Positions 23,594-47,145 of a DNA stretch of 53,814 nucleotides are shown one piece after another; the first letter of the stretch is position 1, and each line of letters opens with the position of its first letter. A program made the position numbers and the translations under genes. A model generated the notes under the pieces. The model did no database searches, had not been told where the DNA came from, and saw only the letters and a program-made list of their open reading frames with translations. This stretch comes from Boseongicola sp. SB0665_bin_10 (GTDB lineage Bacteria > Pseudomonadota > Alphaproteobacteria > Rhodobacterales > Rhodobacteraceae): positions 1-53,814 of the forward strand of contig VXSG01000031.1 in NCBI GenBank assembly GCA_009838075.1, in the 5' to 3' direction.

Positions 23594-23792
23594 CCTGTCA
23601 GGCCTGGGCCCGCATCGCGGGGCGCGGGCATGGTCCGCGACGGAAACCGCGTCCGCCGGGCGACAGCGTGGACCGGTGACGGCGAGGGCCAATGCCGGGA
23701 GAGGCTGCGTTCCGCCAAAGCGGTGATCGGCGTGCCGGAACGGCAGGCATCTTGGCGCCTGGGGACGGTCCGGCCATTCGCTTGGTCTCCCT

Positions 23793-25701: not shown

Positions 25702-26121
25702 GTGCTTCTCCATCGTTCTCACGGATAAATGATATGTAGTAACTTTTTTTCGTTTGCCAAGCTGATTTTATATGAAGAATATAGAAATATACCAAAAGTG
25801 ATTGAATGTGTGAAAGATGCCTATTTCCGCGAAACCTCTTGAACACGTGTTCAGCAGTCGGCCGGCGCCGTGCGACGAAATGCCCGTAAGCCGCTCGAAC
25901 GGTCGGTCGCGCCCTGAAGATCCGCATGCGAGGCCCGCACCGACACCGAATCCCGCCCAGTCACGCCTCCCGACCCTCCGCTCCTTTTGCGGGGCGCGGG
26001 GGCTCCGACCGTCCCGCGACGCAGCGCGAATGCGCCGCGCCCGGATGGCGCTTCCCGGACGCGCCTGCCGCGTCAGCAACGGCCGTTGGCGCCTGAACGT
26101 CACGACGCGAGGGGACCCGTC
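25702..26121. promoter_or_regulatory. Divergent promoter region between GntR and MocR regulators
   Basis: The segment 25725-25800 is strikingly AT-rich for this genome (runs such as AACTTTTTTTCG and TTTTATATGAAGAATATAG) and sits directly upstream of the GntR gene. It likely holds the GntR promoter and operators. The rest, 25810-26121, is GC-rich with no gene and precedes the MocR ribosome site GAGGGG. Confidence 0.5.
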
Positions 26122-31500: not shown

Positions 31501-31970
31501 ACCGCTTCCGTGTGCGGGCGGTGCAACAGTCCGGGCCGGGCGCGCCTTCGAACGCGCTGACCGCGGCCCCGGTGCCGCTCGTTCTCACGATCGTGCCGTA
31601 CAACGACACGGACACGATTGTCGAGGGTGAGCTTGCCCGGTTCGAGATCCTGCTCTCCGGCCCGCTCACTCACTGGATCGAGTTGGACGTCCGCTACACG
31701 TATACGGGGGAGATGATGCTGGATCCCATATCGAGAGACACGACGCAGTATGGACCGCGCCCGCAAGAGAGCATCTTGCCGCGCGTGGTTGCGACGCTGG
31801 ATGACAGCGCCATCGAGCCCGACGGCTCGGTGACGCTCAGCCTCCTGCCGGGGACGGCTACGGGATCGGAGAGCTGTCGTCGGCGACGATACGTGTTCTC
31901 GACAACGACGGGGGCCGGGCGCCGACGGCGCCAGCGGCACCGACGGTGGGCACGCTTTCTCCGACCGTGA
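28578..31970 (+). CDS. Giant FN3/Calx-beta surface protein, N-terminal part (frameshift at 3' end)
   Basis: This is the N-terminal ~1,100 residues of a secreted modular adhesin-like protein. A long signal sequence ends near residue 65 (hydrophobic run VLAAVLLALLSAVLAGALPA, cut after AQA). Then come an FN3 domain (~70-165), Calx-beta-like domains with acidic EDDD ends (~168-275 and ~425-570), two nearly identical ~90-residue modules (~595-685 and ~816-906) separated by a Calx-beta domain, another FN3 (~905-1000) and the start of a further Calx-beta. At the G-run 31850-31853 the reading frame slips: Calx-beta homology continues in the frame of the next entry, and the last ~40 codons here are nonsense. 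AAGGA lies 8 bases before the ATG. Calx-beta modules bind calcium in known members; calcium-dependent adhesion is inference. Confidence 0.85.
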   Translation: MHAIFHKIFAVELGSTSFEAETKPLSAGGSVRPGLGARARLRVLAAVLLALLSAVLAGALPAQAQSPSADGPSAPRQLAAATEDGGIVLNWSAPADNGASGIRHYQMRNAEGASIPSDTPWISVGSQTSGAFRQLTNGTLYTFEVRAVNDHGHGPAASIQAIPNIPTTVSVSPVQATVTEGADAVFRFSRVGRTAESLSVSFNVSGHWKIMSPLTRLLTFSSGQSQNTTVTFAPGETEATVALASEADSENEGDGEISVTIRNALEHDVGSAGTATVLVEDDDIPAVSIRWISPPMTVQGNTWVGSMVEGEDIEYEIECTGGTLAPYGERLRIPVHVREELNHPVFTSYGRDYKVRQPCSDQPEEGFLQSYGYGRQRYVGPDNGRIRIDILPQVRNMYDYPGYVLPASPVCYGSPDDVRFCPKFTFGSVTSVDIEVLNRNPTITVEAVDEEVNEGEPARFRLTRIWTSDWLNPDGLLGASTDVDFAISSVGGYVSSPQNGQETFGASETEIIVEVPTESDGVSGNDGQVTFEILAGSAETQAGNIGGHYEVYDHIDGITPPGGNSRMASVRILNRDAPGVEISETALKVPEGESRTYTARLASQPTGPVTVTLSAAGDPDVTVRPATLTFTPSTWNAAQTVTVSAAHDGDAADDAATVSHAPSGGGYDAVTVADVAVTVEDDDAASSAVALSVLPGTVDEDAGATAVEVTATLDAAPRTSDTDVSVTVSAGTAAADDFAAVPGFTLTIPAGETEGTASFSLAPVDDAIDEEAETVSVDGAVQGLTVTSAAVTIADDDERGVDVSASSLTVPEGGGGAYTARLASQPTGPVTVTLSAAGDPDVTVRPATLTFTPSTWNAAQTVTVSAAHDGDAADDAATVSHAPSGGGYDAVTVADVAVTVEDDDAALQAPELTVAWPGFEQVRLAWTAPTNGQRSITGYEVHVERVDDGSVVHDWEPAGATLEHTVTGLENEVEYRFRVRAVQQSGPGAPSNALTAAPVPLVLTIVPYNDTDTIVEGELARFEILLSGPLTHWIELDVRYTYTGEMMLDPISRDTTQYGPRPQESILPRVVATLDDSAIEPDGSVTLSLLPGTATGSESCRRRRYVFSTTTGAGRRRRQRHRRWARFLRP
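30364..30632 (+). repeat. 269-bp intragenic duplication, copy 1
   Basis: This copy encodes the module beginning YTARLASQPTGPVTVTLSAA and ending VEDDDAA. It is essentially identical at DNA level to 31027-31295 (one difference noted, GAC versus GAT near the end), at an offset of 663 bases (221 codons, in frame). Confidence 0.93.
31027..31295 (+). repeat. 269-bp intragenic duplication, copy 2
   Basis: This is the second copy of the module at 30364-30632. Because the copies are in frame and nearly identical, recombination between them would remove or add exactly 221 residues without breaking the frame. Confidence 0.93.
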
Positions 31971-34900
31971 TCGAAGCGACCTGGCATCCGCCGTCAGACC
32001 CGGGCAACCCCGGCTCCATCGATAGCTACGACGTGCAGTACCGCAAGTCGGACGCGACCGGTTGGCTGGACGGACCCGTCGGTGTTGTCGACACGCGGGC
32101 CGTGCTTGAGGGGCTTGAGGCAGGCACGTCCTACGAGGTGCGGGTGCTCGCGCGCAACGCGCGCAATCCCCGCAACCCGGACAGCGTGCATGCGGAAAAC
32201 TGGTCCGGGCCGGGAACCGGAAGCACCGCGCCGTCGTCGGCGGTGACGGTGTCGGTGGCGGAACCGTCCGGATCGCCCCAGGCAACGGAAGGCGACGTGC
32301 TTGCGTTCATCGTGACCGCGGACCCCCCTCCGGCCTCGGACCTGCGCGTGGCAGTCGCGGTAAGCGAGTCGGGGGCCATGCTCCTGGCGCCCTTGCCGTC
32401 GGAGGTCACGATCGCGGCGGGGACAGGCGAGGCGGTGCTCGATGTGGCGACGGTGGACGACGCCGTCCACGAGACGGCAAGCCAGGTGTTCGTCGCCATC
32501 GCGCCAGGTTCCGGCTACGATCGGGGTGAGGCGGTGGCAAGTCGGCACGTGTCCGACAACGACCCGTCCGGTCCGGACGGAGCCCCGGGCAAGCCCCTCA
32601 ACCCGCACGCGGAGCCGATGAGCGATACCGAGCTCAGGCTGACGTGGGACTGGCCGCAGGACATCGCGCGCGACCAGGTCACGAGCTGGGTCGTCATGTG
32701 GACGGTCGAGCCCTGCGGGCAGGCGTCGCCGTCTTGGGCGGCTGCGCAGTCCCTGCCGGCGGGCGACGGCGATCCGACGGAGTTCGTGCTGACGCCCGGC
32801 CGGGCGGCGGCGGCGCACTTCCGGGTGGCGGCGCTGCTTGCCGACGCACATCTCGGACCCTGGTCCGAGGCTGTGTGCGCGGACACCACGGCGAACAGTC
32901 CGTTCGAGGTCGAGGGCGCACGCGTGGTCAACGACCCCGGCAGCAACGGGACCTGGGACGCGGGCGAGACGGTGGAAGCCGAAATCGTCTTCAACCGCCC
33001 CGTGTGGGTGGACGACTCGAACGGACGGCCGTCGCTCGCAATCGTTCTCGACGGCGCGCGGCGCGAGGCGCCATGGGTCGGCGGCGGGGGCACTCCGACG
33101 CTCCGCTTCGCCTATCCGGTCACGGCGAACGAAGCCGGCGCGAGGGTCGCACGCGTGCTCCCGAACGGACTGTCCCTCAACGGCGCGACGATTCTCGACG
33201 CCGAGGGGCGCCGACCGCCCGACCGCTTCGACGTGACTCCGGTCGTGACCGCGGTCACCGTGGAAGCCGAGGCGGACGGGCTCTGGAGTCCGGGGGACGC
33301 GGTGCACGTTCACGTGGCCTTCAACGAGCGCGTGACGGTCGACACGCAAGGCGGATGGCCGTCGCTCGGCGTCGTTGCCGGCGCCGCGCCGGAAGCCCGC
33401 GCGGTCTATGCGGGCGGCTCGGGGACGCGGACGCTCCTGTTCGCTCACGCCGTGCCGGAAGCGGCCGCGCCGGCTTCGAGCGTGGTGGTGCTCGCCAACT
33501 CGCTGGCGCTCGAGGGCGGCGTCATTCACCGCGGGGGTGTCGCGGCGGACCTGCGCCATCCGTGGGCGCATCTCGACGCGACGTCGTCCGGGGCGGTGCC
33601 TGCGCTTTCTGTGGCCGACGCGTCGGCTGCCGAGGGCGGACGTCTCGCCTTCGCCGTGACCCTAGATCCCGCGTCGCTGGAGACGGTGACGGTGACGGTG
33701 ACGGTGGCCTACGCGACGTCTGACGGGAGCGCCAGCGCCGGGACGGACTATGCGCGGGCTGCCGGACGGCTGACCTTCGCGCCGGGCCAGACCCAGGCGC
33801 TGGCCGAGGTGGCGGTGCATGCCGACAGCATCGACGAGGGTGTCGAGACCCTGACCTTCACGCTCTCCGGCCCGTCCGGGGCGGAGATCGCGAAGGCGCA
33901 GGCGACGGGCCGTGTCGTGGATGCGTCTGCGCTGACGGCGTCGTTCGAGGACGCGCCGGAGGAGCATGGCGGATCGAACGTGTTCGGGTTCCGGCTCGTG
34001 TTCAGCGAGCCGGTGTTCAACGGCAACGAGCCGTTCGACAAGAACCGGGCGATCCGGGACGCTCTCCGGGTGAGCGGCGGCACGGTCAGGGGCGGACGCC
34101 GGGTGAACCCCGGTGCCTTCGACCAGTGGATCCTGTGGATCAGGCCTTCCGGCCACGGCGACGTGACCGTCAGCCTGCCTGCGACCACTGGCGGTTGCGA
34201 CATCGCGGGGGCGATCTGCACGCCCGACGGCAGGGCGCTCGCGAACGCGCCGGCCGTCACGATCCGGGGCTTGCCCGGACTCTCGGTGGCGGACGTCGCG
34301 GTCCAGGAAGGGCCCGGCGCGGCGCTGGCCTTCCCGGTGACGCTCTCCCGGGCGTCCTCCGGGCAGGTGACGGTGGACTACGCGACCGCCGACGGCAGCG
34401 CGACGGCAGGCTCGGACTACGTCGCGACCAACGGCACGCTCACCTTCGAGGCGGGCGAGACGGTGAAGACCGTCGCCGTCCCGGTGCTGGACGATGCCAT
34501 CGACGAGGGCTCGGAGAACCTGACTCTCACCCTTTCGAACCCGTCCGGCAACGCCCGGCTCGCCGATGCCACGGCGACCGGCACGATCCGCAACTCCGAT
34601 CTCATGCCCCAGGCATGGCTGACGCGGTTCGGGGGCACCGTCGCCGAGCAGGTTCTCGACGCGGTGCAGGGCCGGCTGCAGGGACCGCCGGCCGTCGGCG
34701 TGCAGGTGACGCTGGCCGGCGAGCGGGTCGTTTCGCCGGCTGCATCGGGCGGCGAGGAACCCGGATCGGGGTCCATGGCAGGGTCGGAACGCCGCGACGG
34801 CTACCGGCCGGTCCCGCCCCACGAGTTGCTGACGGGCTCGTCCTTCCAGTTCACCAGCAGGGCCGACGGCGCCGACGGCGACCTGGTCTCCATCTGGGGA

Positions 34901-36043
34901 CGGGGCGCCCGGAGCAGCTTCGACGGACGCGAGGGCGACCTCTCCCTCTCGGGCGAGGTGACCAGCGCGCTCGTCGGCGCCGACTGGAGCAGTGACAGGT
35001 GGACCGCAGGCGTGTTGCTGTCCCACGCTCTTGGCGAAGGCAGCTACCGGGGGGCGTCGTTCGGCAAGGTGGAGAGCGCCTTGACCGGGCTGTATCCCTA
35101 CGGGCGCTACGAGCTCACCGACCGGGTGACCGCTTGGGGCACGGCAGGCTACGGCGCGGGCACGCTCACGCTTAGGCCGGAAGAGCGCGAATCGGGAGAT
35201 GGCGCAGCGATGCGGACCGACATGGACCTCATGATGGCGGCCGCAGGGCTGCGCGGGGTGGTGGTCCGGGCACCGGCCGAGGGCGGCCCGGAGGTGTCGG
35301 TCGAGACCGACGCGCTCGCGGTGCGCACCCGTTCCGGAGCGCTCGGCACCCACACCGGCAACCTGGCCGCGGCGACCGGCGACGCAACCCGGCTGCGCTT
35401 CGGCCTGGAAGGGACCTGGCATGGCCTTTCGGTTGCGGGTGGCAAGCTGAAGCCGAGGCTCGAGTTCGGCATCCGCCATGACGGCGGCGACGCCGAGACC
35501 GGCTTCGCGCTCGACGCCGGCGCCGGACTCGCCTGGTCGCGACCGGAGAACGGCCTTCGGCTGCAGCTCGCGGGGCGGGGCCTCCTGGACCTCGAATCGA
35601 AGGGCTTCCGGGAGAAGGGCGTGGCGGGTTCGCTCGCCTGGCAGCCGGACGGCGAGGGCGGGCGCGGCCCGAGTCTCGCCGTGACCCGGACCCTGGGCGG
35701 GGCGTCCTCGGGCGGCGTTGACGCGCTGCTCGGACGACGCACCCTGGCGGGGCTCGCCGTGGGCAACGACGGCGACCCGCTGGAGAGCCGGAGTTCCGAG
35801 GTCCGCTTCGGCTACGGCTTCGCGGCGCTCGGCGGTGGGTTCACCTCGACCCCGGAGCTTGGCTTCGGCATGTCGAACGGCCGCCGGGAATACAGCCTGG
35901 GCTGGCGGCTCAACCGCGACGGGCGCGGCGATGCCGGGTCGGTCGAGTTCGCCATCGAGGCAACCCGCCGGGAATCCGCGGATGACCACGCGGGCGCGAC
36001 GCCCGAGCACAAGGCCGGGTTCCGCTTCACGGCGCGTTGGTGA
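31946..36043 (+). CDS. Giant surface protein, C-terminal part with outer-membrane barrel
   Basis: This is the continuation of the preceding gene in the +1-shifted frame. Homology extends back to ~31854 (GDGYGIGELSSATIRVLDND), so the given GTG start is only where an independent frame could begin. It has an FN3 domain (~1-90), a Calx-beta (~100-200), an FN3-like domain, two copies of a domain with the pattern DGxWxxGDxVxxxVxFNxxVxVD (~325-525), more Calx-beta domains with VTVDYATADGSATAGSDY, and one domain beginning LTASFEDAPEEHGG. The last ~400 residues form a predicted beta-barrel introduced by WLTRFGGTVAEQVLDAVQGR. It shows repeated amphipathic strands and ends in an aromatic residue (FTARW), as outer-membrane barrels do. 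This resembles an autotransporter-like layout with passenger N-terminal to the barrel. Confidence 0.85.
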   Translation: MGTLSPTVIEATWHPPSDPGNPGSIDSYDVQYRKSDATGWLDGPVGVVDTRAVLEGLEAGTSYEVRVLARNARNPRNPDSVHAENWSGPGTGSTAPSSAVTVSVAEPSGSPQATEGDVLAFIVTADPPPASDLRVAVAVSESGAMLLAPLPSEVTIAAGTGEAVLDVATVDDAVHETASQVFVAIAPGSGYDRGEAVASRHVSDNDPSGPDGAPGKPLNPHAEPMSDTELRLTWDWPQDIARDQVTSWVVMWTVEPCGQASPSWAAAQSLPAGDGDPTEFVLTPGRAAAAHFRVAALLADAHLGPWSEAVCADTTANSPFEVEGARVVNDPGSNGTWDAGETVEAEIVFNRPVWVDDSNGRPSLAIVLDGARREAPWVGGGGTPTLRFAYPVTANEAGARVARVLPNGLSLNGATILDAEGRRPPDRFDVTPVVTAVTVEAEADGLWSPGDAVHVHVAFNERVTVDTQGGWPSLGVVAGAAPEARAVYAGGSGTRTLLFAHAVPEAAAPASSVVVLANSLALEGGVIHRGGVAADLRHPWAHLDATSSGAVPALSVADASAAEGGRLAFAVTLDPASLETVTVTVTVAYATSDGSASAGTDYARAAGRLTFAPGQTQALAEVAVHADSIDEGVETLTFTLSGPSGAEIAKAQATGRVVDASALTASFEDAPEEHGGSNVFGFRLVFSEPVFNGNEPFDKNRAIRDALRVSGGTVRGGRRVNPGAFDQWILWIRPSGHGDVTVSLPATTGGCDIAGAICTPDGRALANAPAVTIRGLPGLSVADVAVQEGPGAALAFPVTLSRASSGQVTVDYATADGSATAGSDYVATNGTLTFEAGETVKTVAVPVLDDAIDEGSENLTLTLSNPSGNARLADATATGTIRNSDLMPQAWLTRFGGTVAEQVLDAVQGRLQGPPAVGVQVTLAGERVVSPAASGGEEPGSGSMAGSERRDGYRPVPPHELLTGSSFQFTSRADGADGDLVSIWGRGARSSFDGREGDLSLSGEVTSALVGADWSSDRWTAGVLLSHALGEGSYRGASFGKVESALTGLYPYGRYELTDRVTAWGTAGYGAGTLTLRPEERESGDGAAMRTDMDLMMAAAGLRGVVVRAPAEGGPEVSVETDALAVRTRSGALGTHTGNLAAATGDATRLRFGLEGTWHGLSVAGGKLKPRLEFGIRHDGGDAETGFALDAGAGLAWSRPENGLRLQLAGRGLLDLESKGFREKGVAGSLAWQPDGEGGRGPSLAVTRTLGGASSGGVDALLGRRTLAGLAVGNDGDPLESRSSEVRFGYGFAALGGGFTSTPELGFGMSNGRREYSLGWRLNRDGRGDAGSVEFAIEATRRESADDHAGATPEHKAGFRFTARW

Positions 36044-37119
36044 GGCGGCAAAGGTCCGGGCGCCCGCCAGGCGTGCGCCCGGACGATGCGAGCGATCGGA
36101 AGGGCCCGGGGACAGCCCCGGGCCCGATCCGCGGCCGGAGGCGCCGGCGGAAGACCGGAAGAAGAGGCAGCCGGCGTTGCGTGCCGAGATTCCGGAATCG
36201 CCCCAAGCCGACTCGAATCTCGCCACATTCCCGACAGATTGGAATCGACGGATGTGCCCCCCGAGAGGCGCATCCGGCAGTCGCTCCGGGGCATTTCGCA
36301 CGTGTGTGACGACAATCGAGCTTTGTGCAAGGAACAGGCGGGATCAGGGGCGGTCGGGCGTTGTCTCAAGGTTGCCCGGGCGTCAGAGCTTCGGCTTGAC
36401 CGCGGTCAATTCCGTTCCGCTTCGGGTGCCTGCCTTGAGAAAGATCGGCCGGACGCCCTGAGCGACGTTCGATGGTCGCCCCTGCGGAGTTCCGCACACG
36501 GAGCTTGCCTGGCACCTCGCCGGCGATCCGGCCCTGTTGGCCTCGCCAATAAAGTGCGGATCCGCACGCGTCTCGCCAATCCAATGTGTGCAATTCCTCG
36601 TTGACAAAAGTGGGAGTCTCAAGATTGCCAGCAACAGCGTCGGCCACGGCGCCCGGACATCCAAAAAATCGCCTTGACGATTTCGACCGGGCTAAGCACT
36701 TGGCGCGGCGTTTATGTGGAAGTCAGTTCGAGCGAGGAAGGGCACATGTTCCTATCCAGGACCGAGGGACCCGTTCGGGTTCGTCGTCCTTTCCTCAACC
36801 TCCGAAATTGCTGAAGCGCCCGGACGGGCCTGCCCGTCCCGAAGGCCCCTGCCTTCTCTGGCGGACCCCGCGAGACACGGCTTGGAAGTCGCGCGATGCC
36901 GATACGACTACGGCGAAATTGGGGCCGGGTGCGCGAATTTGCCGAAGGGCCAGCGCATGCGGAGTTTGGATACCATCTTTGAGGTGAACCGGCGGCAAGA
37001 TCACGAAACCGGAAAGACGAGCGTGGGAGTGATCCGATTGCTTCTCGGCCAACACGTTCGGCAAAGACGTGGAGATTCCTTGCCGATGAGGAAGTCAGTG
37101 GCAGAGCGCTTCCCGACAT
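36044..37119. other. Intergenic region after the surface-protein gene
   Basis: Over 1 kb without a supported gene. It holds a strong hairpin (36102-36125). The 16-base string ATCACGAAACCGGAAA near 37005 also occurs near 24443. All frames here look like noise. Confidence 0.4.
36102..36125 (+). terminator. Hairpin downstream of the surface-protein gene
   Basis: A perfect 10-bp stem GGGCCCGGGG / CCCCGGGCCC with an ACAG loop lies 60 bases after the stop codon. No T-run follows, so it may be a transcript-stabilising hairpin or a Rho-assisted stop, not a classic intrinsic terminator. Confidence 0.6.
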
Positions 37120-38480
37120 CTAGCAACCTGGGCGAGGATCAAGGCCTTTGCCAAGCGCAGGCCATGTCATGACGGATACCAGGAACACGCCAGCCGCCGA
37201 CACGTAGAACGGGAGAGCTATCGCCAGACTCCTCCCTACGGAATCTTCGGCGACCCTCACGATCAATCCGCACCCGAGCATGCCCACCGGCATGAGGGCC
37301 CATGCCGTAAGCCGGTACTGGCTGTTGATGCGCCCTCGCATCCAGTCTGGCAAGGCGCGCTGCCGAAACGAGACCGATACCGTGTTTCACACCGTGCCGC
37401 TGAAGTTGAACAGGAAATACACTAGCGCAAGACTCCATGTGTCTGGTGCGACAGCCATGCAGAGGAAGCTCGGCGTGGAGAACAGCAGGGCATACTGCGC
37501 GGTTCGTCCCGGTCCCAGCGTTGCAACGATCCTGTTGCCGAACCAGCCGCCGACCGCGCCGCCCAAGGCGCCGACCGCGAGCACGGAACTGTAGTCGAAC
37601 GACGATCCACCCAGGTTTTCCTGAACGTGAAGGATCAAGGCCGTCAGCGCCATCAGGAAGAAGAGGTTCCACGCCCCGGCCACCGCCGCCAGCTTCAGAA
37701 GGAAGTCGTGCGAAAGCAGGAATCCGGCAGCCTCCCGGATGTCCTGCCACCACGTGGATTGACGCTTCCTCAACGTGAAGGCGCCGCGAACCCTGAGGAA
37801 CGCCGCCGCTCCAAAGGCGTAAAGGAGGCCCGCGACGGCAAAGGGCATGCAGGGAGCCCAAAGAAGCATGGCGCCGCCCAGCATCGGCCCGACAAGCGAG
37901 TTGCAAAGCAGTTTCGCGGCCCAGTTCCGGCCGTTGGCCTTCTCCAGCGAACTGGCTTGCACGATCGAGGGCAGGATCGTCTGCATGGAATTGTCGCGGA
38001 CGATCTCCAGCATTCCGCGACAAGGGCGGAGATGACCAGCGCGGAATGGACCGGCACCGAGCTGACGCCGGAAACTGCCGGGGGCCCGAACGGGACCTTC
38101 AGGCAAACCAGTCCGGAAAATGCGGCCAGAAGAAGAATCCGTGAGATGTCGGCAGCCATGATCAGGCGCTTGCGGTTGAAGCGGTCCGCGATCACGCCCG
38201 CGAAGACAGCGAAGCCCAGCCAGCCGAGACGGACCGTGAACGGCACTGCTGCAATGAGAATGGCATCCCGGGTGAGCAGTGACGCGGTCCAGGCCCAGCA
38301 AACCAGAAGAATGCCGTCGCCAACGTTGGTCGACGCGGTCGAGACCAGGGAACGCCTGAATGCCGCCGGCAGGATGTCATCACTGTTTCGCGTCGGCGTT
38401 ACGAGCGGTTGTGGCTGCCTTGGAATCACGCACTGCCTGTTCCCGTTGCCGAAGTCCCCGGCCGGCCGGCACGGAACCAT
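37120..38480 (-). pseudogene. MFS exporter pseudogene (one frameshift, one nonsense mutation)
   Basis: This was a major facilitator superfamily permease of the EntS/DHA3-like type. The first part (TNVGDGILLVCWAWTASLLT, ending at VIADRFNRKRLIMAADISR) is in one frame. Near 38015-38022 one base is missing, and homology continues in the next frame (GMLEIVRDNSMQTILPSIVQ, then helices to VYFLFNFSGTV). There a TGA at 37387-37389 replaces the usual Trp, and the same frame goes on with NTVSVSFRQRALPDWMRGRI and two more helices to 37120. With both lesions repaired the protein would be ~430 residues with 12 helices. The start is not certain. The substrate is unknown; relatives export siderophores or drugs. 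Confidence 0.75.
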
Positions 38481-39292
38481 GAGTTGTTCGCTCGCTGCCC
38501 GAAGTCAAGAGATTCCCTTCATCCGGCGAGCATGGCGGCGAGAAGGCAAAGTGCTGCATCGATCAGGACATTGGCAAGGACGTACGGAGGTGTCGTGCGC
38601 AGGAACTCGAATGTCCTCAACCTCGCTTCCAGCATTCAATTCCTCGGCTGAACTGAGCAACGGGAACAAGGCGGACATCGAGGCTACCAAGCACGGGATT
38701 CTCCCGGAAGGGACTTGTTCATCACACTGTCAACACCTCTGGTTCAATGGATGTGCCGTGCAGGGGCGCACCGGACTTCGAGATTTGGCAGTCGCCGACA
38801 GACACGTTCGGAGGTGACCCTTTGGCAAGCACCAGGCACGATGGCAAGGGGTTGCCAGACACTGTCGCGATGCGAGGGGCCAAGAAACTTCCAGTTCAAT
38901 CAGCGTTCCAATTTGCCATCGTTTCAGCTTTCCAAGTTTCGTCTTGCATCGGTTGAAGCCAACGCCGATGGCACAACTCGCCGATGTCGGGAGGGATCGT
39001 GTGTCCGAACGCGCCCGGCAATGACTTGTCTTGGCCAGTGCCTTGAAGGGGAAACCCGGACGACCCGAGGGAGTGCCGGATCGGCCGTGCCTTGACGGGA
39101 GGGAAGAGGGAACCCACCGGTCTTCCGGGCTCGTCGCCAAAAGGTCTGCCATTGCGAGGGCGACAGGGTTGTCCAGGTCTGCGCCGTACGCTGTCATTCA
39201 GGTGCGGGGACAGGGAACAGGTTGTCAGCGTGAAGTCCGGCACGAGTCCGGGCAGGATCCCGGACAAGGCAGGGAGCAGTGGAGGAAGACGG
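38481..39292. other. Intergenic region with one dispersed-repeat copy
   Basis: About 810 bases with no supported gene. It carries one copy of the CTTCCAGTT dispersed repeat (38884-38909) and probably decayed mobile DNA. Confidence 0.4.
38884..38909 (+). repeat. Dispersed repeat (GAAACTTCCAGTT family), copy 1
   Basis: It begins GAAACTTCCAGTT and ends GCGTTCC, the most divergent of four copies in the same orientation (others at 40549, 43706 and 45779). Confidence 0.5.
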
Positions 39293-39691
39293 ATGGATCG
39301 ACCGGACGCGCCGGTGGCCGGGCGGAAAGGCCGGGACGTGGCGATCGAACTTTGGCGCTGCTTCGACGAGAGGCGGTTCCGGGATGCCTTTCCGCTGCTG
39401 TCCGAGGACTTCGAGGCTCATTGGCCGAACACCCGGGAGCGCATCCGCGGCCCCGGGAACTTCATCGATCTCAACGAAAGCTATCCGGGCGACTGGCGCT
39501 GCACGGTCCGGCGAATCGACGAGTGCGGCGACACCGTGGTGACCGTGACGGAAATCAGCGACGGCGAGACCTCCCTGTTCGCGGTGTCGTTCCTTGAAGT
39601 GCGGGACGGCCGGATTGCCAGGGCGGAGGAGTATTTCGCGGAGAACGGCCCACCGCCGTTTGATCGCTCGGGTTTCGCCGAGCGCTACTGA
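39293..39691 (+). CDS. SnoaL/NTF2-like small protein
   Basis: This 132-residue protein has the NTF2-like cone fold pattern: an N-terminal helix (VAIELWRCFDERRFRDAFPL), a DFEAHWPNTRERIRGPGNFI segment that lines the pocket in the family, then strands ending VSFLEVRDGRIARAEEYF and FAENGPPPF. Members include isomerases, cyclases and simple ligand-binding proteins, and no specific catalytic residues can be named here. The ATG at 39293 follows GGAGG with a 7-base spacer, which sets the start; the frame upstream is open but not conserved. It is a single gene without operon partners and is intact, unlike most of its surroundings. Confidence 0.85.
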   Translation: MDRPDAPVAGRKGRDVAIELWRCFDERRFRDAFPLLSEDFEAHWPNTRERIRGPGNFIDLNESYPGDWRCTVRRIDECGDTVVTVTEISDGETSLFAVSFLEVRDGRIARAEEYFAENGPPPFDRSGFAERY

Positions 39692-40098
39692 TCGGCGATG
39701 CGCCTCCGTGGCTCGCCCTGCGTTGCATCGATCCACTCCCCGCGACCGGGCGGTGCGGTGCCGAAGTCGCCAAAGCGAGAATAAGGTCACCCATGTACGT
39801 GTCCGGCGTTGGCGGGCACCGAAGCCCTGGAGACCGGCCGTGCAAGCGGGAAGGGCGGAAACCGCCTGCCGGGTGCGGGCGGACGCGGGTGCACGGGGCC
39901 TCAATCCGGCAGGCATTTCCAGGGCTGTCACCAGGATCCCGTTCCGCCTGGCGGCGCTTTCAGCCGGACGCGCCACGCTTCGTCCCGAGGTCACCCGTGC
40001 GCTCTCACCTTGCCATGCCGCCTGCGCCCTGTCATCCGTTTCCTGCGGCCGGCTCCGGAAGTTGCGGGCGGCTGAATGCGACAAGGGAGGAATCCGGG
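39692..40098. other. Intergenic region, no gene seen
   Basis: About 400 bases; only the leader of the following small gene is identifiable. Confidence 0.4.
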
Positions 40099-40284
40099 AT
40101 GACAGGAACGAGCGAGGGACGAATCGCCGAGGCGCTGGAGCGCATCGACGGCAACCTGGGACGCATTGCGGACGTCCTTGAGGAGGGCGGGTTGAACGAC
40201 ATTGCCGACGCGTTCACGATCATCGCCATGGCGATCACGGGCATGGAGCCCGAACTCGAGGACGAGGACCTGCCGGAGCACTGA
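40099..40284 (+). CDS. Small acidic helical protein, unknown function
   Basis: This is a 61-residue protein, MTGTSEGRIAEALERIDGNL and so on, with heptad-like spacing of Ile/Leu in the first half (IAEALERIDGNLGRIADVLEE), a short hydrophobic stretch (IADAFTIIAMAITGM) and a strongly acidic tail (EPELEDEDLPEH). The ATG follows GGGAGG with an 8-base spacer. Short coiled-coil oligomerisation is plausible. No family or neighbour gives a function. Confidence 0.7.
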   Translation: MTGTSEGRIAEALERIDGNLGRIADVLEEGGLNDIADAFTIIAMAITGMEPELEDEDLPEH

Positions 40285-40689
40285 GGGCGCGGATTGCCGG
40301 TCGGACAGGTTCGGGCCGCCGGACGCAGAACCATTCGTGACGGGTCGTGTTGACCATGCGGGCACGCTCGGAAACGGGCCGCGTGTCCTCACCATTTCAA
40401 CACGCCGAAAGTGGCCGGCAGGCCACGCAGGGACGCTTCCGACCACGTCTCCGAGCGCCTCCGATGAGGATTGGCGACAAGCGTCATCGTGGCGCGGGAC
40501 AGAGCGGAACGTGCGGGGCCGGGCAACGCACCGAGGACACCTCGCCATGAAACTTCCAGTTTGAACAGCATTCAAATCCGCTCGCCAATGATTGAAAAGT
40601 TGCGCGACTTTGGGGACGGAGGCTCCATGAGGCATGCAGAACCGGGTGCGCGCCAAACACATGTGCGGGAGACACGATCTCACAGTCGT
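40285..40689. other. Intergenic region with dispersed-repeat copy
   Basis: No supported gene. It contains the copy of the dispersed repeat at 40549-40573 just beyond the IS5 remnant. Confidence 0.4.
40549..40573 (+). repeat. Dispersed repeat (GAAACTTCCAGTT family), copy 2
   Basis: It contains GAAACTTCCAGTTTGAACAG and then CATTC, the clearest copy. It lies just downstream (in minus-strand sense) of the IS5 transposase remnant. Confidence 0.55.
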
Positions 40690-40921
40690 TCGCTGGCGCC
40701 CTGCGGCGGACGCGCTTGCACACCGCCCTCCAGTCGTCGAAGAGTTCGGGAAGGTCGTGCCATCCCGTACGTAGCCGCCAGAATTCCACCGCGCGGAATT
40801 TCAGGTTGCCCATTGCAGTCACATAGCGGGGTGGCGCGTTGCCAAGCGGCTTTGGCGCGACCAGCGGCCAAATGGCTTCGATCCCCTTCAGGTCTGAACT
40901 CACTTTGGGAACCGTCAGCAC
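40690..40921 (-). pseudogene. IS5-family transposase N-terminal remnant (DUF4096)
   Basis: The minus-strand frame encodes FRAVEFWRLRTGWHDLPELF followed by DDWRAVCKRVRRRAP. This matches the DUF4096 N-terminal block of IS5-family transposases (pattern WxLRTGxxWRDLPExFxxWxxVxxRFRRW), preceded by an IW.L..P region as expected. The DDE catalytic domain is absent, and the frame runs into unrelated sequence by ~40690. It is a short fossil of an insertion sequence. Confidence 0.55.
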
Positions 40922-41502
40922 TGCCCTTGCAACCGTTCTGGCGCAGCAGGCATCGATCCGCCCGAATTACTGCTCGCAAGAAAACGTGCGGCAACTCTTC
41001 TCAGACGTGCCCTCTCGATTGCGATCGCGGTCGCAGGACCGCGCGTGACCCACTTGCCGATGACGGCCAGCGGCGTGAACTTCGCGTAAGCCCGGCAGAG
41101 TGCGGCGTGGGGCCGCCGAGGCCCTTGCCGCTGTACCGCTTCGCATGGTTTCAGAGGATCTGGGCATCAACGCCGGCATCGCCGACGTTCCCGGTCAGGG
41201 ATGGCTGGCCCTCGATCACCAGGCCTCTTCCTCCACCCGGGTCGTGCCCTCGCTCAGGGATGGCCGCTGCTGCACTTCGGCGTGAAAATGGGGTGGGTCA
41301 AGCGCTGTGGGACATTGCGGATTGGCATGAGAACCGCTGTCGTTCCGGGCACCGGTCCTTGCCCGGAACATGGGCCGCTCACAACTCGCGGCCTCTCTCT
41401 TGCGGGAACACAGGACCCGACCGAAAGGCCGGCCCCCAAAAGGTGACCCCGCATGCAACATGGCATCGTGGCCACCTCGGGACAGGGAGGCCGAACAAGA
41501 AG
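40922..41502. other. Intergenic region, no supported gene
   Basis: High-GC DNA with only noise frames, ending at the terminator of the RiPP precursor gene. Confidence 0.4.
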
Positions 41503-41538
41503 CCGCACCGGGGCCGACCTGTGGCGGCCCCGGTGCGG
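41503..41538 (-). terminator. Intrinsic terminator of the NHLP precursor gene
   Basis: A perfect 13-bp stem (CCGCACCGGGGCC with its complement, 10-base loop) begins 10 bases after the precursor stop codon. In minus-strand sense it is followed by the pyrimidine-rich CTTCTTGTTC. This is the strongest terminator-like structure noticed in the window. Confidence 0.75.
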
Positions 41539-41548
41539 TGAACCCGGA

Positions 41549-41803
41549 TCAAATGCAGCTGCCGTCGAGTGCCACGGCGACCGCCTCGAGCTGTTCTTCG
41601 CTGAGGTCGGAACTGGGCGGCAACGCCAGGTATATGGTGTTCATGTCGCTTTCCTGCACCTTGATGTCGATGCTGTCGGGAATCGTGATCCCGAACTCCT
41701 CGCCAATGACGTCCTTGGGGTCGGCCAGAAGCCGAGCCCGGAATTCGGGGCTCTCCACCGCCTTGGCCGTGACATGGGCACAGATTTCCTCTGCGGCGTG
41801 CAT
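41549..41803 (-). CDS. NHLP-type RiPP precursor peptide (orphan)
   Basis: This 84-residue peptide has the nitrile hydratase-like leader peptide (NHLP) pattern known from ribosomal natural-product precursors: VTAKAVESPEFRARLLADPK, then IGEEFGITIPDSIDIKV, NTIYLALPPS and the leader end LSEEQLEAVA. The remaining residues, VALDGSCI, would be an unusually short core with one Ser and one Cys. The ATG at 41803 follows GGGG with 6 bases; an in-frame start at 41839 is less likely. A candidate promoter (41872-41901) and a strong terminator make it a single-gene unit. No cyclodehydratase, lanthipeptide synthetase, radical SAM or peptidase gene is in the window, so any maturation enzyme is elsewhere. It could also be a stray relative of the nitrile hydratase alpha N-terminus. 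Confidence 0.85.
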   Translation of the reverse strand: MHAAEEICAHVTAKAVESPEFRARLLADPKDVIGEEFGITIPDSIDIKVQESDMNTIYLALPPSSDLSEEQLEAVAVALDGSCI

Positions 41804-42159
41804 CGCGTTCCCCTTCGCAGTCGAATCGGGCGCACACAAGCACCAGCTTCACCAACAAATAGAAGGTCTTGTGTAAATTGTGTGTTTCGATTTCGAGACA
41901 ATTGATATTTTTTTGATAAAGACTCGGCGCGGCAGGGCATGATCCCGGGCTTTGGCGTGACATTCCATCTGAAGCGGAATCTCCAGCCTGCGAATCGCCG
42001 TCCTTTCGTCCAGCGCGCTGAAACGCAATGGCTGCCCGCCGCAGACGCGGCGCCACGGCTGGAATCCTGATGAAAGGACCACGGTGACGCGCGTGGCGGC
42101 AGGGCGGCGGCCCTGCCTGACGAGGTCGGGCCATTCTCCGGCCGGTTCTCCAGGCACGT
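41804..42159. other. Upstream region of the NHLP precursor gene
   Basis: It includes an unusually AT-rich stretch (41850-41925) that probably holds the precursor promoter. The rest has no supported gene. Confidence 0.45.
41872..41901 (-). promoter_or_regulatory. Candidate sigma-70-like promoter of the NHLP precursor
   Basis: In minus-strand sense TTGTCT and TTTACA are separated by 18 bases, placing a transcription start about 60 bases before the ATG at 41803. The surrounding AT-rich DNA supports it. The match to consensus is only moderate. Confidence 0.35.
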
Positions 42160-42486
42160 TCCCGCCCGCTGCGCGTGCTGACGCATCCGGCCCTCCTGGT
42201 GGTCGACGAAATCGGCTACCTGCCGGTCAGCCAGGACGGTGCCGTGCTGTTCTTCCAGCTCGTCAACGCCCGGCACGAAAGGGCGTCAACGGTCCTGACG
42301 TCGAACAAGGGCTTCGAGGACTGGGGCCGCGTGCTCGGCGACGAGGTCATGGCTGCAGCCCTGATCGACCGGCTGGTCCATCGCTGCCACATCGTCAACA
42401 TCCGGGGGAACAGCTACAGGATGCGGGATCACCAGAACCTGACGCGTTCCGGCACGGACCGGCGCCGCAGGAAGGACGGATCATGA
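42160..42486 (+). pseudogene. IS21-family helper ATPase IstB, C-terminal fragment
   Basis: The frame encodes the C-terminal half of IstB, the AAA+ target-selection ATPase of IS21 elements: LTHPALLVVDEIGYLPVSQD (Walker B with VVDEIGY), FFQLVNARHERASTVLTSNK (sensor region), FEDWGRVLGDEVMAAALIDR and the C-terminal HRCHIVNIRGNSYRMRDH. The N-terminal half with Walker A and the whole IstA transposase are missing, so the element is dead. It ends at 42486 and is followed by end-like repeats at 42614-42673. Confidence 0.85.
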
Positions 42487-42613
42487 TCGGCGAAGACGGC
42501 AAGGACGGCTTCGGTGCGGGCCGGTTGCCCAAAGCCCTGCCGGATCCAGCACCCAGGCACCCTGTCTGCGGGCATGAACTCGCACCAGAACTGTTGCATT
42601 TTCATTTGCCAGA

Positions 42614-42673
42614 TGGAGTGCGCCCCTGCGGTTGGACAATTTGTGGAGTGCGCCCTTTCGGTAGGACAGTTCA
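42614..42673 (+). repeat. Two direct 30-bp repeats at probable IS21 end
   Basis: Both units (42614-42643 and 42644-42673) start TGGAGTGCGCCC and continue with CGGT and GGACA at matching positions. IS21-family elements carry multiple direct repeats near their ends as transposase sites, so this is probably the element's right end, inserted into the integrase gene. Confidence 0.65.
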
Positions 42674-42680
42674 GCCTGCA

Positions 42681-43544
42681 CTATTTGACCCATCCAGGGC
42701 GTTCGGTGACGTCGTTGTGGCGGGCATGGTTGATTAGGCGTTTCGTCAGCGAGGGCGGCAGCATCAGTTCGCGCTCCGCGACGGTGATGAAGCAGTTGCA
42801 CAGGCAGCGGAACCAAGACTTCGCGCCGCCGGCCTTGCTGATGTGGCCGTAGAAGTGGTACGGGTCTTGGGCATGGCCGGTGGCGCTGGTTAGCTAGGGA
42901 AACACCCAATCCCGGATGGCCGCGGGATGATTGCCGAGAGCGCCCTCTCGCCGCGCGAGAATCGTGGCGAGCTGATTGGTGACGGGAACCTCCAGGGGCA
43001 CGCCGGTCTTGGTCTCCTCGACGCGGAAGGTGAGGGCGTTCAAGTCGACCCGCTCGACGTCGCTGCGGTCGAACTCGTCAAGGGAACGGTCAAGACAGTC
43101 GCCGAGATCCCTGTGAACGGTGCGGCGATAGCTGGCGACGGTGCTGTCCCTGCGCCTGGGTCCGACGGCAAGCCAGTTCTCGAAGGCCTTGCGCAGGGTC
43201 GGGGTGGAACGGGTGCGCGCCCGGTCCGCGAGCGGGTCCTCGCCCAGGGCGACGCGGCCGAGCATCTCCCGGGCGCGGCGCGCCCGGTCGGCGGTGACGA
43301 GGCCGTGACGGCCGATGACGATCCTACGGTTCGGCGCCTTCCGGCCGTGATCGCCGGCACGGTAGCTTACGAGGTACGAGCGCAGGCCGGACGGGTGAAC
43401 GCGGACGCCGAATCCGGTGAGCCTGTCGTCCCATGCGATGTAGGGTCTGTCCCCGGGCCGGAGCGTGTCGACGGTCCGCGCCGTGAGCGTCATCCTGAGG
43501 TGCGCGGCGAGTTTCGCGGACGGAACGGCTGAGTTGCCGGACAT
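42681..43544 (-). pseudogene. Tyrosine recombinase (integrase) pseudogene
   Basis: This is a phage/ICE-type integrase. The N-terminal arm-binding DUF4102-like domain is present (LTARTVDTLRPGDRPYIAWD, LTGFGVRVHPSGLRSYLVSY), then the core-binding region. The text jumps from RSLDEFDRSDVE directly to RVDLNALTFRVEETKTG, so the part of the catalytic domain with the first Arg is deleted. A TAG at 42894-42896 follows RDWVFP, after which the same frame resumes with LTSATGHAQDPYHFYGHISK and CFITVAERELMLPPSLTKRL. The end (GWVK) departs from the family at the IS21 end, so the final residues were lost by insertion. At least three lesions make it inactive. Confidence 0.75.
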
Positions 43545-43945
43545 GCACCAGTTGACACGGAATCGCAGCCCAATGTCAACGCGTCGAGCTCGACAGGTGC
43601 GCCCCTCCGATATGCTCTGTTGAGCTCTGATGACATGGGCACTCTTGACAACGGACAGATGTGGTCACAGGGGGTCACGCAGCACCCTGAAAGAGATATA
43701 ACGTTGAAACTTCCAGTTTTAACCGCCTTCAATCTGTATTCCACATTGGGACCGGATCGTCGTCGCATTTGTCGCGCGCCACGGGGTCATGGACTTGCCT
43801 GCGTGAGTTGTTGGCCAGCAAGCTCTGACGGAAGGCTCCGAAAGAGGGGAATTGCGGGCCAAAGTCCTTCACGTTGCGTGATCGGCACATCGATTTGCGT
43901 GCAGAAGCTCAAGGGGAATCACCCGTCGTCGCAAGAGCGGTTCCT
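43545..43945. other. Intergenic region with dispersed-repeat copy
   Basis: No supported gene. It holds the integrase upstream region and the repeat copy at 43706-43730. Confidence 0.4.
43706..43730 (+). repeat. Dispersed repeat (GAAACTTCCAGTT family), copy 3
   Basis: It contains GAAACTTCCAGTTTTAACCG and then CCTTC, in the same orientation as the other copies, just after an AT-rich string GATATAACG. Confidence 0.5.
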
Positions 43946-44809
43946 TCATTCGGCGGCAAGGAACTCCAGGATCGCGGCGTTCACCGCCTCGACCTGCTGC
44001 CAATGCGCGAAATGGCTCGCATTGCCGAGCAGGAGCAGCCGCGAGTCCGGAATGAGCTCCGCCATGCGCTTCGTGTGCGCTTCGTCGATAGCCTCCTCGT
44101 AGACCCCGGCGGCAATCACGAAGGGAACCGCGATGCCTTCCAGCTGCGCGTCCGTGTATGCGGGCTGTTCGCTCCACATCGCGAACACCTTGCCGGAAAA
44201 GCTTTCCCACGCGTCCGGTGTCGGCGAGATCCTCGCGTACTGCGCGGCCGCGTGGCCGACATAGGCGCCGACCAGCGCATCGGAAAAGGCGGAAGGGCGA
44301 AGGGCGTCCGTCCTGTAGTTCGCCCCGAGCGCGAACACCCTGGTCAGCCGGTCGGGATTGTGGATCGCCAAGTCGAGGCCGATGTTGCCGCCGTCGCTCC
44401 AGCCCACCACGGCGGCCTTGTCGATGCCCAGGCTGTCCATGACTCCCATCACGTCACTTGCCATGAGGTGGTAGCCATACGGCTGGTCGTCGTCCGTCGA
44501 GCGGCCATGGCCGCGGCTGTCTATGGCGACCACCTTGTAGCGTTCGGAGAGGGCGTCGACCTGGCCGCCGAAATCCTCCGCCGCGCCCAGGCCGCCGTGC
44601 AGCAACAGGACCGCATCCCGATTGCCGGAGCCGTAGAGCGCGTAATGAATGACGGCGCCGTTGACCTGGACGGAGTCCGTCGCTTCCGGCGCTGGCAGGG
44701 GCCGGGGCGGCGTCAGCGTCCTCCAGCCGTCACCTGCCGCCACATTGCCTGTCGTGGCAAGCAGCCAGACCATCCCGATGGTCAGCAATTTCGACGTCGT
44801 GCGTTTCAT
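43946..44809 (-). CDS. Secreted alpha/beta-fold hydrolase
   Basis: This is a 287-residue protein with a signal peptide (MKRTTSKLLTIGMVWLLATT, probable cut near VAAG) and an alpha/beta hydrolase domain. The oxyanion segment is LLLHGGLGAAEDF, followed by IDSRGHGRSTDDD; the nucleophile elbow is VVGWSDGGNIG (Ser), and the catalytic His lies in LLLGNASHFAHWQ near the end. The probable acid Asp/Glu precedes it after IAAGVYEE. The ATG at 44809 has GGAGG 6 bases upstream, which favours it over the frame's start at 44824. It is predicted periplasmic. The substrate (ester, lactone or similar) is unknown. It is intact within a decayed neighbourhood. Confidence 0.88.
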   Translation of the reverse strand: MKRTTSKLLTIGMVWLLATTGNVAAGDGWRTLTPPRPLPAPEATDSVQVNGAVIHYALYGSGNRDAVLLLHGGLGAAEDFGGQVDALSERYKVVAIDSRGHGRSTDDDQPYGYHLMASDVMGVMDSLGIDKAAVVGWSDGGNIGLDLAIHNPDRLTRVFALGANYRTDALRPSAFSDALVGAYVGHAAAQYARISPTPDAWESFSGKVFAMWSEQPAYTDAQLEGIAVPFVIAAGVYEEAIDEAHTKRMAELIPDSRLLLLGNASHFAHWQQVEAVNAAILEFLAAE

Positions 44810-45733
44810 GACCGTTTCCTCCATAGAGCGCGCATCCTGCGGCCTCCAGCATGGCGCGGTTGAGTGAATGCCGGTTCCTGTCCGGGACGCCGGCCATCTT
44901 GACTCTAGCCGGATCGTGAACGTGGATCAATCAGGCTCGCACAGGCACTGGGGACCAGACCTGGAGCGGTTGGACGTTTCCCGCTTCCGCGGAAAGGCCG
45001 GGCACAAGGTCGCTCGTGCCGACCGGTCCGGCGACACGCCTGAAGCCCCACAATGACCCGGCGAGGGCCCGGAAGGCCCGAGATGGGAGGAACCCGCAAC
45101 GACGCTCGGCGAGGGCACGGTCCGCTGGCAGCACTGCCGCAGCGCCCGGCGAGACCGCGGCGGAGCATCGCAGTTTTCTCTTGGATCTCGCGCCTCCGCG
45201 GCGTTTCCCGTCCGGGAATCTTCGCTTTCAGCGTTCGCCACGAAGCGGAATTTTCGCGGCGGGATTCCGATGGCGGATGTTTCCCTGGCTGCAACGGGCC
45301 ATGCCGCAGCCAGGCATGGAGAACAAGCTGCTGCGACCGATGGCGCGACCTCGGCGAGCGATCCGGGTACGATCCACCGCGTTCGTTTGCGGCATCGCTG
45401 CCATGGCGCGTCGGTCACCGAAGTGGCGCAGGCCGCCTGTTGACGACAGAATGCTGGCCTGGAGTGCTTGCCAATGGTCTGCCGCAGTGCCGCCAGGGCA
45501 CTGAGCCGCGGAAATAGTGGAAGAAACGAGTGCCTTGCGCCATTGCGACTTTCTGTGGTGATCCGTGAACGACTCGAACCCGCAACCCGCTGACCAGGAT
45601 TCAGCCGGTGTCGTGCGGGCTGGCGCGGCAACGACCTGAGTTGCGAAACCATGCCACGCCACGCCGCGCGATCTTGGCAACGAGGCGCTCTAGCGGGGCC
45701 GGACGTGGCGGTGCATGAATCGTTGCCAGGGAA
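44810..45733. other. Intergenic region, no supported gene
   Basis: About 920 bases of GC-rich DNA with noise frames. A tRNA-3'-end-like string near 45555-45590 is discussed under rejected items. If the TnpB remnant kept its guide RNA, it would be expected near 45500-45800, but no structure was recognised. Confidence 0.4.
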
Positions 45734-46795
45734 TCACGGATCGGTTGCGGGCGGTCCGGAATCCGCGGAACCCGAGCAAGACCTCCAGTTTGAACGGCAT
45801 TCCGTTTCCGTTGAGGCTCGGCCGTCGAGTTCGCCTTCAGAAAGGTCTGATGACATTTCGTCCTGCCCAACCGTGACGATTCGCAACTGAGCGCAGATGA
45901 ACCACCGCCCCCGCTCAAGCACTATCGTCGCCAATTTCTTCCACGCCTCGTCGGGCATGGGTTCCGCCAGGCCGAAGTTCCGGTCGACGAACGCGCCTGG
46001 CATCTTCTGGACCATCATCCTCTGCCGCACGTGCTTGCGGCTCCGGAAATCAAGACGGGCTTTCCGGCCCGCCTTCCGTTTGCGAATGACCGCGTCCCGT
46101 GTCCTGAAGGCTGCGTTCACCGCCTCGTCGCAGTCGGCCGAGCGGAACGTGCCGCCACGTTCGCCAACTTCGTCACGGACGCAGTCCCGGATCGTGGCGC
46201 GGAGCGCGGTCCGCTTCAGGTCCGGCCCCTTCGGGTCCACGAGGCCCGCGTCGGCCTCCCGGAAGCAGGCGACGGCAAGGTTGTGGGCGCGGCGCTGCTG
46301 GCGGACAAGCTCGTGCAGCAGGTCAGGGTCCTTCGGGTAGGCCCTGATCTTCCTCGTGGCCTTGACCAGGACGCTTGCCGTGACGGAAGTCCCGGGAGGA
46401 AGCGAGATCCGCAGCGAGGCGGCGGACGCCGGACCGGACGGAATGATCGCCCGCTTCCAGAAGCTCGATGCTTCCTCCCGAAAGTTCGATGACGTGCCCG
46501 ACGGTCGGGCTGCCCGACCGGGTGATGCGGTCCGGTGCGGCAGCCACCACATGGACGGCCTCTCCGCGCATAGCCCGTTCCAGTAGGGCGACAGGGCCTC
46601 GTCGCCTGAAATCGACTCCGGATCCAGCTTCACGGACAACGTGTCCGTCGGGATGCCGATCGCGCAAGAGTCGCTCCCGGGCGTCAAGGGATGACTCCTG
46701 CTTCGCGCCGGACACGCGGGCGTGGAGGATGGCGTCGGGACCGACAGGAACCCGGACCCTGCAATGCCCTCCGGGTGTCCGCTCATGTCGTTCAT
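45734..46795 (-). pseudogene. TnpB-like protein remnant lacking the RuvC domain
   Basis: The frame from ATG 46795 (AAGGA 8 bases upstream) encodes the N-terminal half of a TnpB/OrfB protein of the IS605/IS607 type. It has a LSPYWNGLCAERPSMWWLPH region, then KIRAYPKDPDLLHELVRQQR and AHNLAVACFREADAG, the FRSADCDEAVNAAFRTRDAV helix and KARLDFRSRKHVRQRM, then LERGRWFICAQLRI. In intact TnpB the RuvC Asp motif follows within ~20 residues. Here unrelated sequence begins after CAQLRI (~45890) and stops at 45734. The RuvC and zinc-finger parts are absent, so nuclease activity is not expected. The copy of the dispersed repeat (45779) lies in the replaced tail. Confidence 0.65.
45779..45803 (+). repeat. 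Dispersed repeat (GAAACTTCCAGTT family), copy 4
   Basis: It contains ACCTCCAGTTTGAACGG and then CATTCC, close to copy 2, at the point where the TnpB remnant loses homology. Confidence 0.5.
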
Positions 46796-47145
46796 GGCGT
46801 CTTCCTTGCATCCCGGGTCATGTCGTTTCCGCCGTGACCGCCCTGCGTCTCGGCAGATGCCGTCACCGTCCACGATGCGCGACTTGCCATATGTTCCTGT
46901 ATTGTTCAAGAGAGGACACCTGAAATGTTGCCTTCGTTGCTTGACAATGAAGCAGCGGCGACCTTGCGTGAATTGAATTTGGTCTATGGCGCATGCGATG
47001 CTCAATGACGAATCCCACGAACAATGACATCCGCCGGTGCTCTGTGGCGGATGTCACTGCCAGGCTTCCTCGCCGCACCTCCATGGCCAAGGCCCCTGAA
47101 TCAAGAGACCCCACCACGCTTCATCTCGTGTTTCCAAAGTGCAGG
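46796..47145. other. Region between tRNA-Ser and the TnpB remnant
   Basis: No supported gene. An AT-richer stretch (46880-47000) may be the promoter region of the TnpB-like gene. Confidence 0.4.

Follow-up and report, generated by a model that had tools for sequence, protein, structure and literature searches.

A locally solitary SrpE-like proteusin precursor gene with a rewritten putative core in a Boseongicola genome

We analysed a stretch of 53,814 nucleotides from Boseongicola sp. SB0665_bin_10, referred to here as the window. It is contig C74 of a 4.80 Mb genome in 124 contigs (98.6% complete, 3.5% contaminated). A small precursor gene lies on its minus strand, with the following features in and around it.

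41503..41538, minus strand: intrinsic terminator hairpin (14 pairs; fold energy)
41549..41803, minus strand: coding sequence of an SrpE-like NHLP (proteusin) precursor, 84 aa, stop included (TIGR03793; 63% identity to L080)
41552..41569, minus strand: putative core L79-D-G-S-C-I84, six residues, equal in length to LCCCGI of relatives (boundary inferred from alignment)
41570..41575, minus strand: leader/core boundary residues V77-A78, which are A-G in 87 of 90 parsed peptides
41588..41605, minus strand: LX4L docking motif, L67-SEEQ-L72 (from the sequence; role of the motif as described in PMC10858898 and PMC12455567)
41804..41940, minus strand: AT-rich upstream region, presumed promoter (GC 0.474)
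41809..41815, minus strand: possible ribosome-binding stretch AAGGGGA, purine-rich, preceding the ATG
41020..42173, no strand assigned: repeated block carrying the twin gene, equivalent to C73:1988-3130 (96.8% identity)
42175..42486, plus strand: IstB (IS21) C-terminal remnant, 5' of the gene (PF01695 positions 151-236 of 238)
42894..43544, minus strand: integrase remnant, with the arm-binding domain the only one recognised (Pfam)
19930..47050, no strand assigned: variable segment beside tRNA-Ser(GGA) at 47146-47235, absent from four aligned sibling loci

The gene at 41549-41803 (minus strand) encodes an 84-aa peptide, MHAAEEICAHVTAKAVESPEFRARLLADPKDVIGEEFGITIPDSIDIKVQESDMNTIYLALPPSSDLSEEQLEAVAVALDGSCI, whose translation ends in LSEEQLEAVA-VALDGSCI. 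A sequence-only reading had described it as an NHLP precursor of 84 residues with a leader ending LSEEQLEAVA, and reading frame, length and tail all agree. The NHLP model TIGR03793 scores the peptide at 64.7 bits (E 5e-18), exceeding the curated cut-off of 50.9. We found 63% identity to L080 over residues 1-79 (E 2e-30) and 47% identity to the LCCCW peptide of G007 (E 5e-21). The leader is 44-64% identical to the SrpE-like peptides collected and retains the LX4L motif. The gene is almost certainly an srp-type NHLP precursor. A profile of the relatives scores it at 134.9 bits, partly by construction because the window peptide is itself a row of the profile alignment. In a profile comparison, the relatives match nitrile hydratases (up to 4.8e-14) as well as the NHLP leader of known structure 8tb1 (E 8.9e-12), and we infer that the window leader adopts the NHLP leader fold.

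The earlier reading had also raised the case of a truncated nitrile hydratase alpha subunit. PF02979 does match above its cut-off (37 bits, cut-off 27.2), but the match covers only positions 113-173 of 184, and TIGR01323 reaches 32.3 bits against a cut-off of 249.85, compared with 64.7 against 50.9 for NHLP. Moreover, the gene has its own start and terminator, and the hydratase-like two-piece match of this genome sits elsewhere, on C17. This origin is excluded in practice and has next to no credence.

The 137 bp upstream of the gene have a GC content of 0.474, compared with 0.61-0.68 in the coding sequence, downstream and in both flanks. The candidate promoter proposed for this region was not confirmed: although the region is AT-rich, no sigma-70-like site passed the consensus scan. 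The region showed no similarity to, and no motif in common with, the upstream regions of seven srp precursors. Downstream, the hairpin at 41538-41503 has 14 pairs, 13 of them G-C, and a folding energy of -38.5 kcal/mol (z -4.8), beating 200 of 200 shuffles. None of the other 14 terminator-like sites (15 were reported in all) exceeds 7 pairs, so the hairpin is indeed the strongest terminator in the window. The proposal of a self-contained transcription unit is thus supported at its terminator and not at its promoter.

When the 53.8 kb were searched by tblastn with 12 proteins of srp type, no gene for maturation or export came up besides the precursor. The only exporter-type matches were ABC ATPase matches of 23-27% identity, at 0.8-2.4 kb. 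This agrees with the earlier statement that no such gene is nearby. The gene was also correctly described as intact among dead mobile elements, with a truncated IstB and an integrase fragment among its neighbours. In the siblings G001, G003, G005 and G007, window-matching sequence runs to 19.7-19.9 kb and resumes at 47.05-47.15 kb, at tRNA-Ser, with 1.5-6.2 kb of other DNA between the two parts. The ~27 kb with the window gene has no match in the corresponding stretches of these 4/4 aligned siblings (G002, G004 and G006 were left out of this comparison). Since this tRNA-Ser segment is missing from the aligned siblings, the gene is accessory and was probably acquired.

An att repeat of the tRNA-Ser was sought within the window, and the single 12-base repeat, at 36067, was taken as chance. 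A phage origin was rejected, with no phage match and no relative on viral contigs. A plasmid origin was rejected as well: at the protein level there was no match of at least 60% identity in 56 plasmid records, and at the DNA level 241 plasmid records match, with 20/20 among the matches listed lying at the IstB remnant. The window also holds a 61-aa ORF at 40099-40284 (plus strand), MTGTSEGRIAEALERIDGNLGRIADVLEE..., with a good coding score and no Pfam match. Two very large adjacent ORFs of 1130 and 1365 aa lie at 28578-36043 (plus strand) within the variable segment, the second with Calx-beta and fibronectin type III domains.

A twin of the window gene, 98% identical, was found on contig C73. 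The stretch 42699-43403, which overlaps the integrase remnant, is also repeated near the C73 twin, at 95%. The copies differ at 12 of 137 upstream positions, the upstream regions matching along their entire length, at 3 of 255 coding positions, all in codons 4-23 (A4V, S18N and one silent change), and at 2 of 529 positions after the stop (10 plus 36 of the hairpin plus 483 downstream). The twin is, on its sequence, a recent duplication or conversion. We ruled it out as evidence of selection on the tail; the identical tails are uninformative on this point because identity is no lower in the DNA that follows the stop. A lack of orthologues with a conserved tail, which had been named as grounds for doubt, was borne out in part, in that the tail was found again only in this recent duplicate within the genome.

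When named genomes were first scanned with the window protein alone, no relatives were found. Later, 220 relatives were gathered in named genomes, of which 80 loci were kept, all of them MAGs from several phyla; these over-represent canonical tails because the search relied in part on a pattern that includes the tail. Most of their bins are presumably sponge-derived, judging by the bin names and one title that says 'sponge'. Since the relatives appear to come from sponges, the window organism is probably a marine-sponge bacterium. The srp system was reportedly first described in 2021, and we know of no established function for its product. Clusters of this kind have been reported from sponges (PMC9426513). 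SrpE is described as having the core LCCCW, in which the YcaO enzyme SrpC makes three thiazolines and SrpI brominates Trp (PMC10858898, PMC10286304).

All seven same-genus genomes searched (G004 is 65% complete) have a peptide ending SAG-LCCCW, and the LDGSCI-tail form was not found in any of them. The SAG-LCCCW precursor of G002 adjoins a Trp-halogenase-like gene, a YcaO gene, a desaturase-GlnE fusion and exporter genes. The same genome has, at L045:16942-18243, an NHLP domain (42.7 bits, below the cut-off of 50.9) at the N-terminus of a ~430-aa protein with no other Pfam match. This type of fusion recurs in many srp loci, and by eye its sequence resembles terpene-cyclase/prenyltransferase repeats.

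The A-G boundary and a (C/S)CC core, with its three adjacent heterocyclisable residues, are kept in 87 of the 90 distinct SrpE-like peptides parsed, a set that includes the window pair and leaves out 5 of 95 rows, all from G558, that misfit the motif. The three exceptions are the window pair (AVA-LDGSCI) and a G660 peptide ending GGGSAGCM, at L219:5697-5966 (contig C54), with no YcaO match in the 16 kb of that locus covered. Whole-genome profile searches are less tail-biased than the pattern search, though the profiles include the tail. Outside the window's own genome they gave 31 SrpE-like places, 30 of them canonical and one GGGSAGCM; this count leaves out matches of other NHLP types, such as G558, G332 and the G002:C42 type. 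Neither these searches nor the named-genome relatives yielded an independent orthologue with the LDGSCI tail.

The window peptide and L080 both have 84 aa and align without gaps (EAISAGLCCCGL and EAVAVALDGSCI, respectively). Because of this gapless alignment, the putative core comprises six residues, LDGSCI, with L first, an aliphatic residue last and one Cys. In-frame substitutions, with no indel, separate it from LCCCG[ILF]-like cores, and the boundary is changed from AG to VA. Alignment with relatives therefore gives six residues instead of the eight once proposed. Nor is a very short core unusual in this family, since the srp-family cores collected have 4-6 residues (RCCC, LCCCW, LCCCGI, RCCCCC); the unusual feature is that both the Cys triplet and the AG motif have been lost. 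In the tree, the window pair sits on a long branch (1.0) with the LCCCG[ILF] and RCCC types, apart from the 64-row LCCCW group, with weak split support (67/86). The literature searched, with most subscription papers and the original srp report outside its scope, contained no mention of non-CCC srp cores, and a literature search for orphan precursors returned nothing.

In the whole genome, the NHLP cut-off was passed at five places (C74, C73, C103 twice and C87). Five matches fell below it: two hydratase-like pieces on C17, a degenerate fragment on C1, C120 (E 0.16) and C81 (E 0.7). The gene had been called an orphan, which is true locally in the window and fails genome-wide, because C103 carries an NHLP/YcaO cluster. 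This cluster has two precursors ending AAG-RCCC, NHLM-type ABC exporters (one with a C39 domain), HlyD, a desaturase-GlnE fusion, a cyclopropane-synthase-like methyltransferase, a YcaO/SagD cyclodehydratase and an MpaB-like oxygenase. The YcaO/SagD protein scores 281.9 bits with TIGR03604 and 133.2 bits with TIGR03882, both over cut-off, and its gene is the one YcaO in the entire genome. For the exporter proteins, NHLM models are the best NCBIfam matches and stay below their curated cut-offs (NHLM ABC1, ABC2 and HlyD; 661 of 709, 816 of 853 and 87 of 156 bits). The fusion (L040:9626-12046, 806 aa) joins a fatty-acid-desaturase domain to a GlnE-like adenylyltransferase domain, and has homologues in many srp loci.

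Three C39 domains were found in the genome, at C29, C103 and C87, and one Trp-halogenase-like gene, ~9.5 kb from the C87 precursor. Lanthipeptide maturation was rejected, the domain search finding no LANC-like domain in the genome. The C87 precursor (L042, L226, L227) is of a second NHLP type ending GGWAPTSSSY, with a C39 domain ~0.7 kb away; in G006, a precursor of this kind on C98 (L052) is followed by exporter-like genes. At C1:149-280 we found a decaying srp precursor of the LCCCW type that has lost its N-terminus and stop and has the core CCRW. It adjoins an RND-like gene. In the sibling G006 (L054), homologues (by eye) of this RND-like gene and of the first C103 gene (C103:124-552) lie on either side of the intact precursor. 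Since that precursor is flanked by homologues of genes from both contigs, C1 and C103 may be neighbours in the genome, where an LCCCW cluster may have been replaced by an RCCC cluster.

For most of its evolution, the window leader has been subject to purifying constraint. Compared with L080 (64% identical), leader codons 1-76 give pN 0.204 and pS 0.493, with a corrected dN/dS of ~0.3. Seven canonical control pairs give pN 0.12-0.35 and pS 0.48-0.86, and the window-L080 leader pair lies within this spread. The tail behaves differently. In comparisons with all seven other relatives of 84 aa, differences fall at 7-10 of the final 10 residues and at 25-39 of the first 74. The respective counts are 9 and 25 for L080 (Fisher 0.001), 9 and 28 for L081 (0.004), 8 and 30 for L083 (0.04), 10 and 30 for L147 (0.0003), 9 and 39 for L150 (0.04), 7 and 31 for L082 (0.17) and 7 and 37 for L094 (0.32); as the window peptide takes part in every comparison, they are not independent. 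In six canonical pairs, only 1-2 of 10 tail residues differ, with 18-27 of 71-74 in the leader. The excess in the tail is partly a matter of how it is aligned, since aligning the tail with gaps in the full alignment gives p 0.02-0.49 in six comparisons.

A leader that is kept while the core is rewritten argues against simple neutral decay, although the constraint could predate a recent death. The gene might be a decaying duplicate, an srp precursor carried off by mobile elements whose core and cleavage site are dead and whose leader has not eroded yet. This account is possible but falls short of even chances. IS and integrase remnants adjoin the gene, which lies within the variable tRNA-Ser segment, core and boundary are both altered, and the C1 precursor is clearly decaying in the same genome. 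On the other hand, the frame is intact in both copies, with A4V and S18N outside the (nearly) invariant columns of the relatives' alignment. Leader constraint is like that of the canonical pairs, with the same reservation about its age. The tail matches LCCCGI in length and end residues without an indel, the terminator is intact, and neutral loss would be expected to strike the tail no harder than the leader.

The kept leader beside a changed core and cleavage site could also indicate a leader with a new role, an NHLP docking module for a YcaO or exporter (decoy, competitor or adaptor) in which the tail is irrelevant. NHLP domains appear to be used without a core, as many srp loci fuse one to a ~430-aa protein like that at L045:16942-18243. 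We consider this role improbable, given that the tail keeps the exact LCCCGI length and one Cys, and that G660 likewise has a tail with one Cys, GGGSAGCM, in a peptide encoded beside exporter genes.

Our preferred explanation, to which we give about an even chance, is that the window gene is an active accessory SrpE-type proteusin precursor, an outlying srp member whose six-residue core is new and which may be matured in trans. Its leader would still dock on the C103 YcaO, the only one in the genome, by means of its fold and L67-SEEQ-L72; this is reasonable because the LX4L motif is kept. The C103 YcaO could then close C83, and perhaps S82, to azoline, and an NHLM-type exporter would release a short peptide. 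Of these steps the last is the least certain, since the usual AG motif has been lost, and its replacement by VA makes C39 cleavage doubtful. The earlier suggestion of maturation in trans is plausible, since the same genome holds YcaO, C39-ABC, ABC and HlyD genes on C103. The LX4L motif of NHLP leaders is reported to be needed by the brominase SrpI (PMC10858898) and the YcaO MprC (PMC12455567), and MprC is described as also modifying a designed core with a single Cys that was joined to an NHLP leader (PMC12455567). SrpC, however, is described as poorly active and strictly substrate-selective (PMC10286304), which counts against trans maturation. The idea is weakened by this selectivity, by the loss of AG, by the lack of an upstream motif in common with the C103 precursors and by the failure to find an independent orthologue with the LDGSCI tail.

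A further reading is that an srp leader, mobile and standing alone, is no longer tied to the tri-thiazoline product. It would either carry a new single-Cys core (LDGSCI) whose processing does not use the AG site, or dock, independently of any core, on srp enzymes provided in trans. We hold this to be unlikely; if true, the window and G660 peptides would be two srp-type precursors seen outside the CCC core.

The srp cores collected are nearly invariant across several bacterial phyla, and the window copy changes every interior core residue while keeping the leader. It is thus a natural test of what the leader does by itself, of the selectivity of SrpC-type YcaO enzymes, and of the idea that RiPP precursors spread as mobile units in their own right. 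The case also shows that a precursor should be called an 'orphan' only after its entire genome has been considered.

Compared with SrpE, the window peptide has a homologous leader, the LX4L motif and an ultra-short core, and its genome has a YcaO and an exporter of the same kind. It differs in having no Cys triplet or terminal Trp, and in having VA in place of AG. While srp precursors adjoin YcaO and NHLM exporter genes, the window precursor has none beside it and C103 has them. This adjacency is not universal. In G683, a lone canonical-core precursor lies on a 50.5-kb contig, and YcaO, halogenase, fusion and exporter genes lie on another; on the precursor contig, tblastn gave weak ABC matches (26-35% identity) and nothing for YcaO, fusion or halogenase. 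G683 is therefore a precedent for a precursor apart from its maturation genes.

The TIGR03793 family (Haft, Basu and Mitchell 2010, PMC2887384) includes the window peptide by its curated cut-off, although the Gly-Gly-type cleavage motif is missing, a lack that concerns its processing rather more than its homology, and NHLP precursors far from their enzymes are described in that work. MprE is likewise an NHLP-leader precursor, recognised by a YcaO (MprC) that accepts a designed single-Cys core. Unlike the window peptide, MprE leaders are reported to end in a double Gly and to yield two to six azolines, with ten of ten precursors modified by one enzyme (PMC12455567). The G660:C54 peptide shares an SrpE-like leader, one Cys second to last and no Cys triplet with the window peptide, but it has Gly-Gly and adjoins NHLM-type exporter and methyltransferase-like genes.
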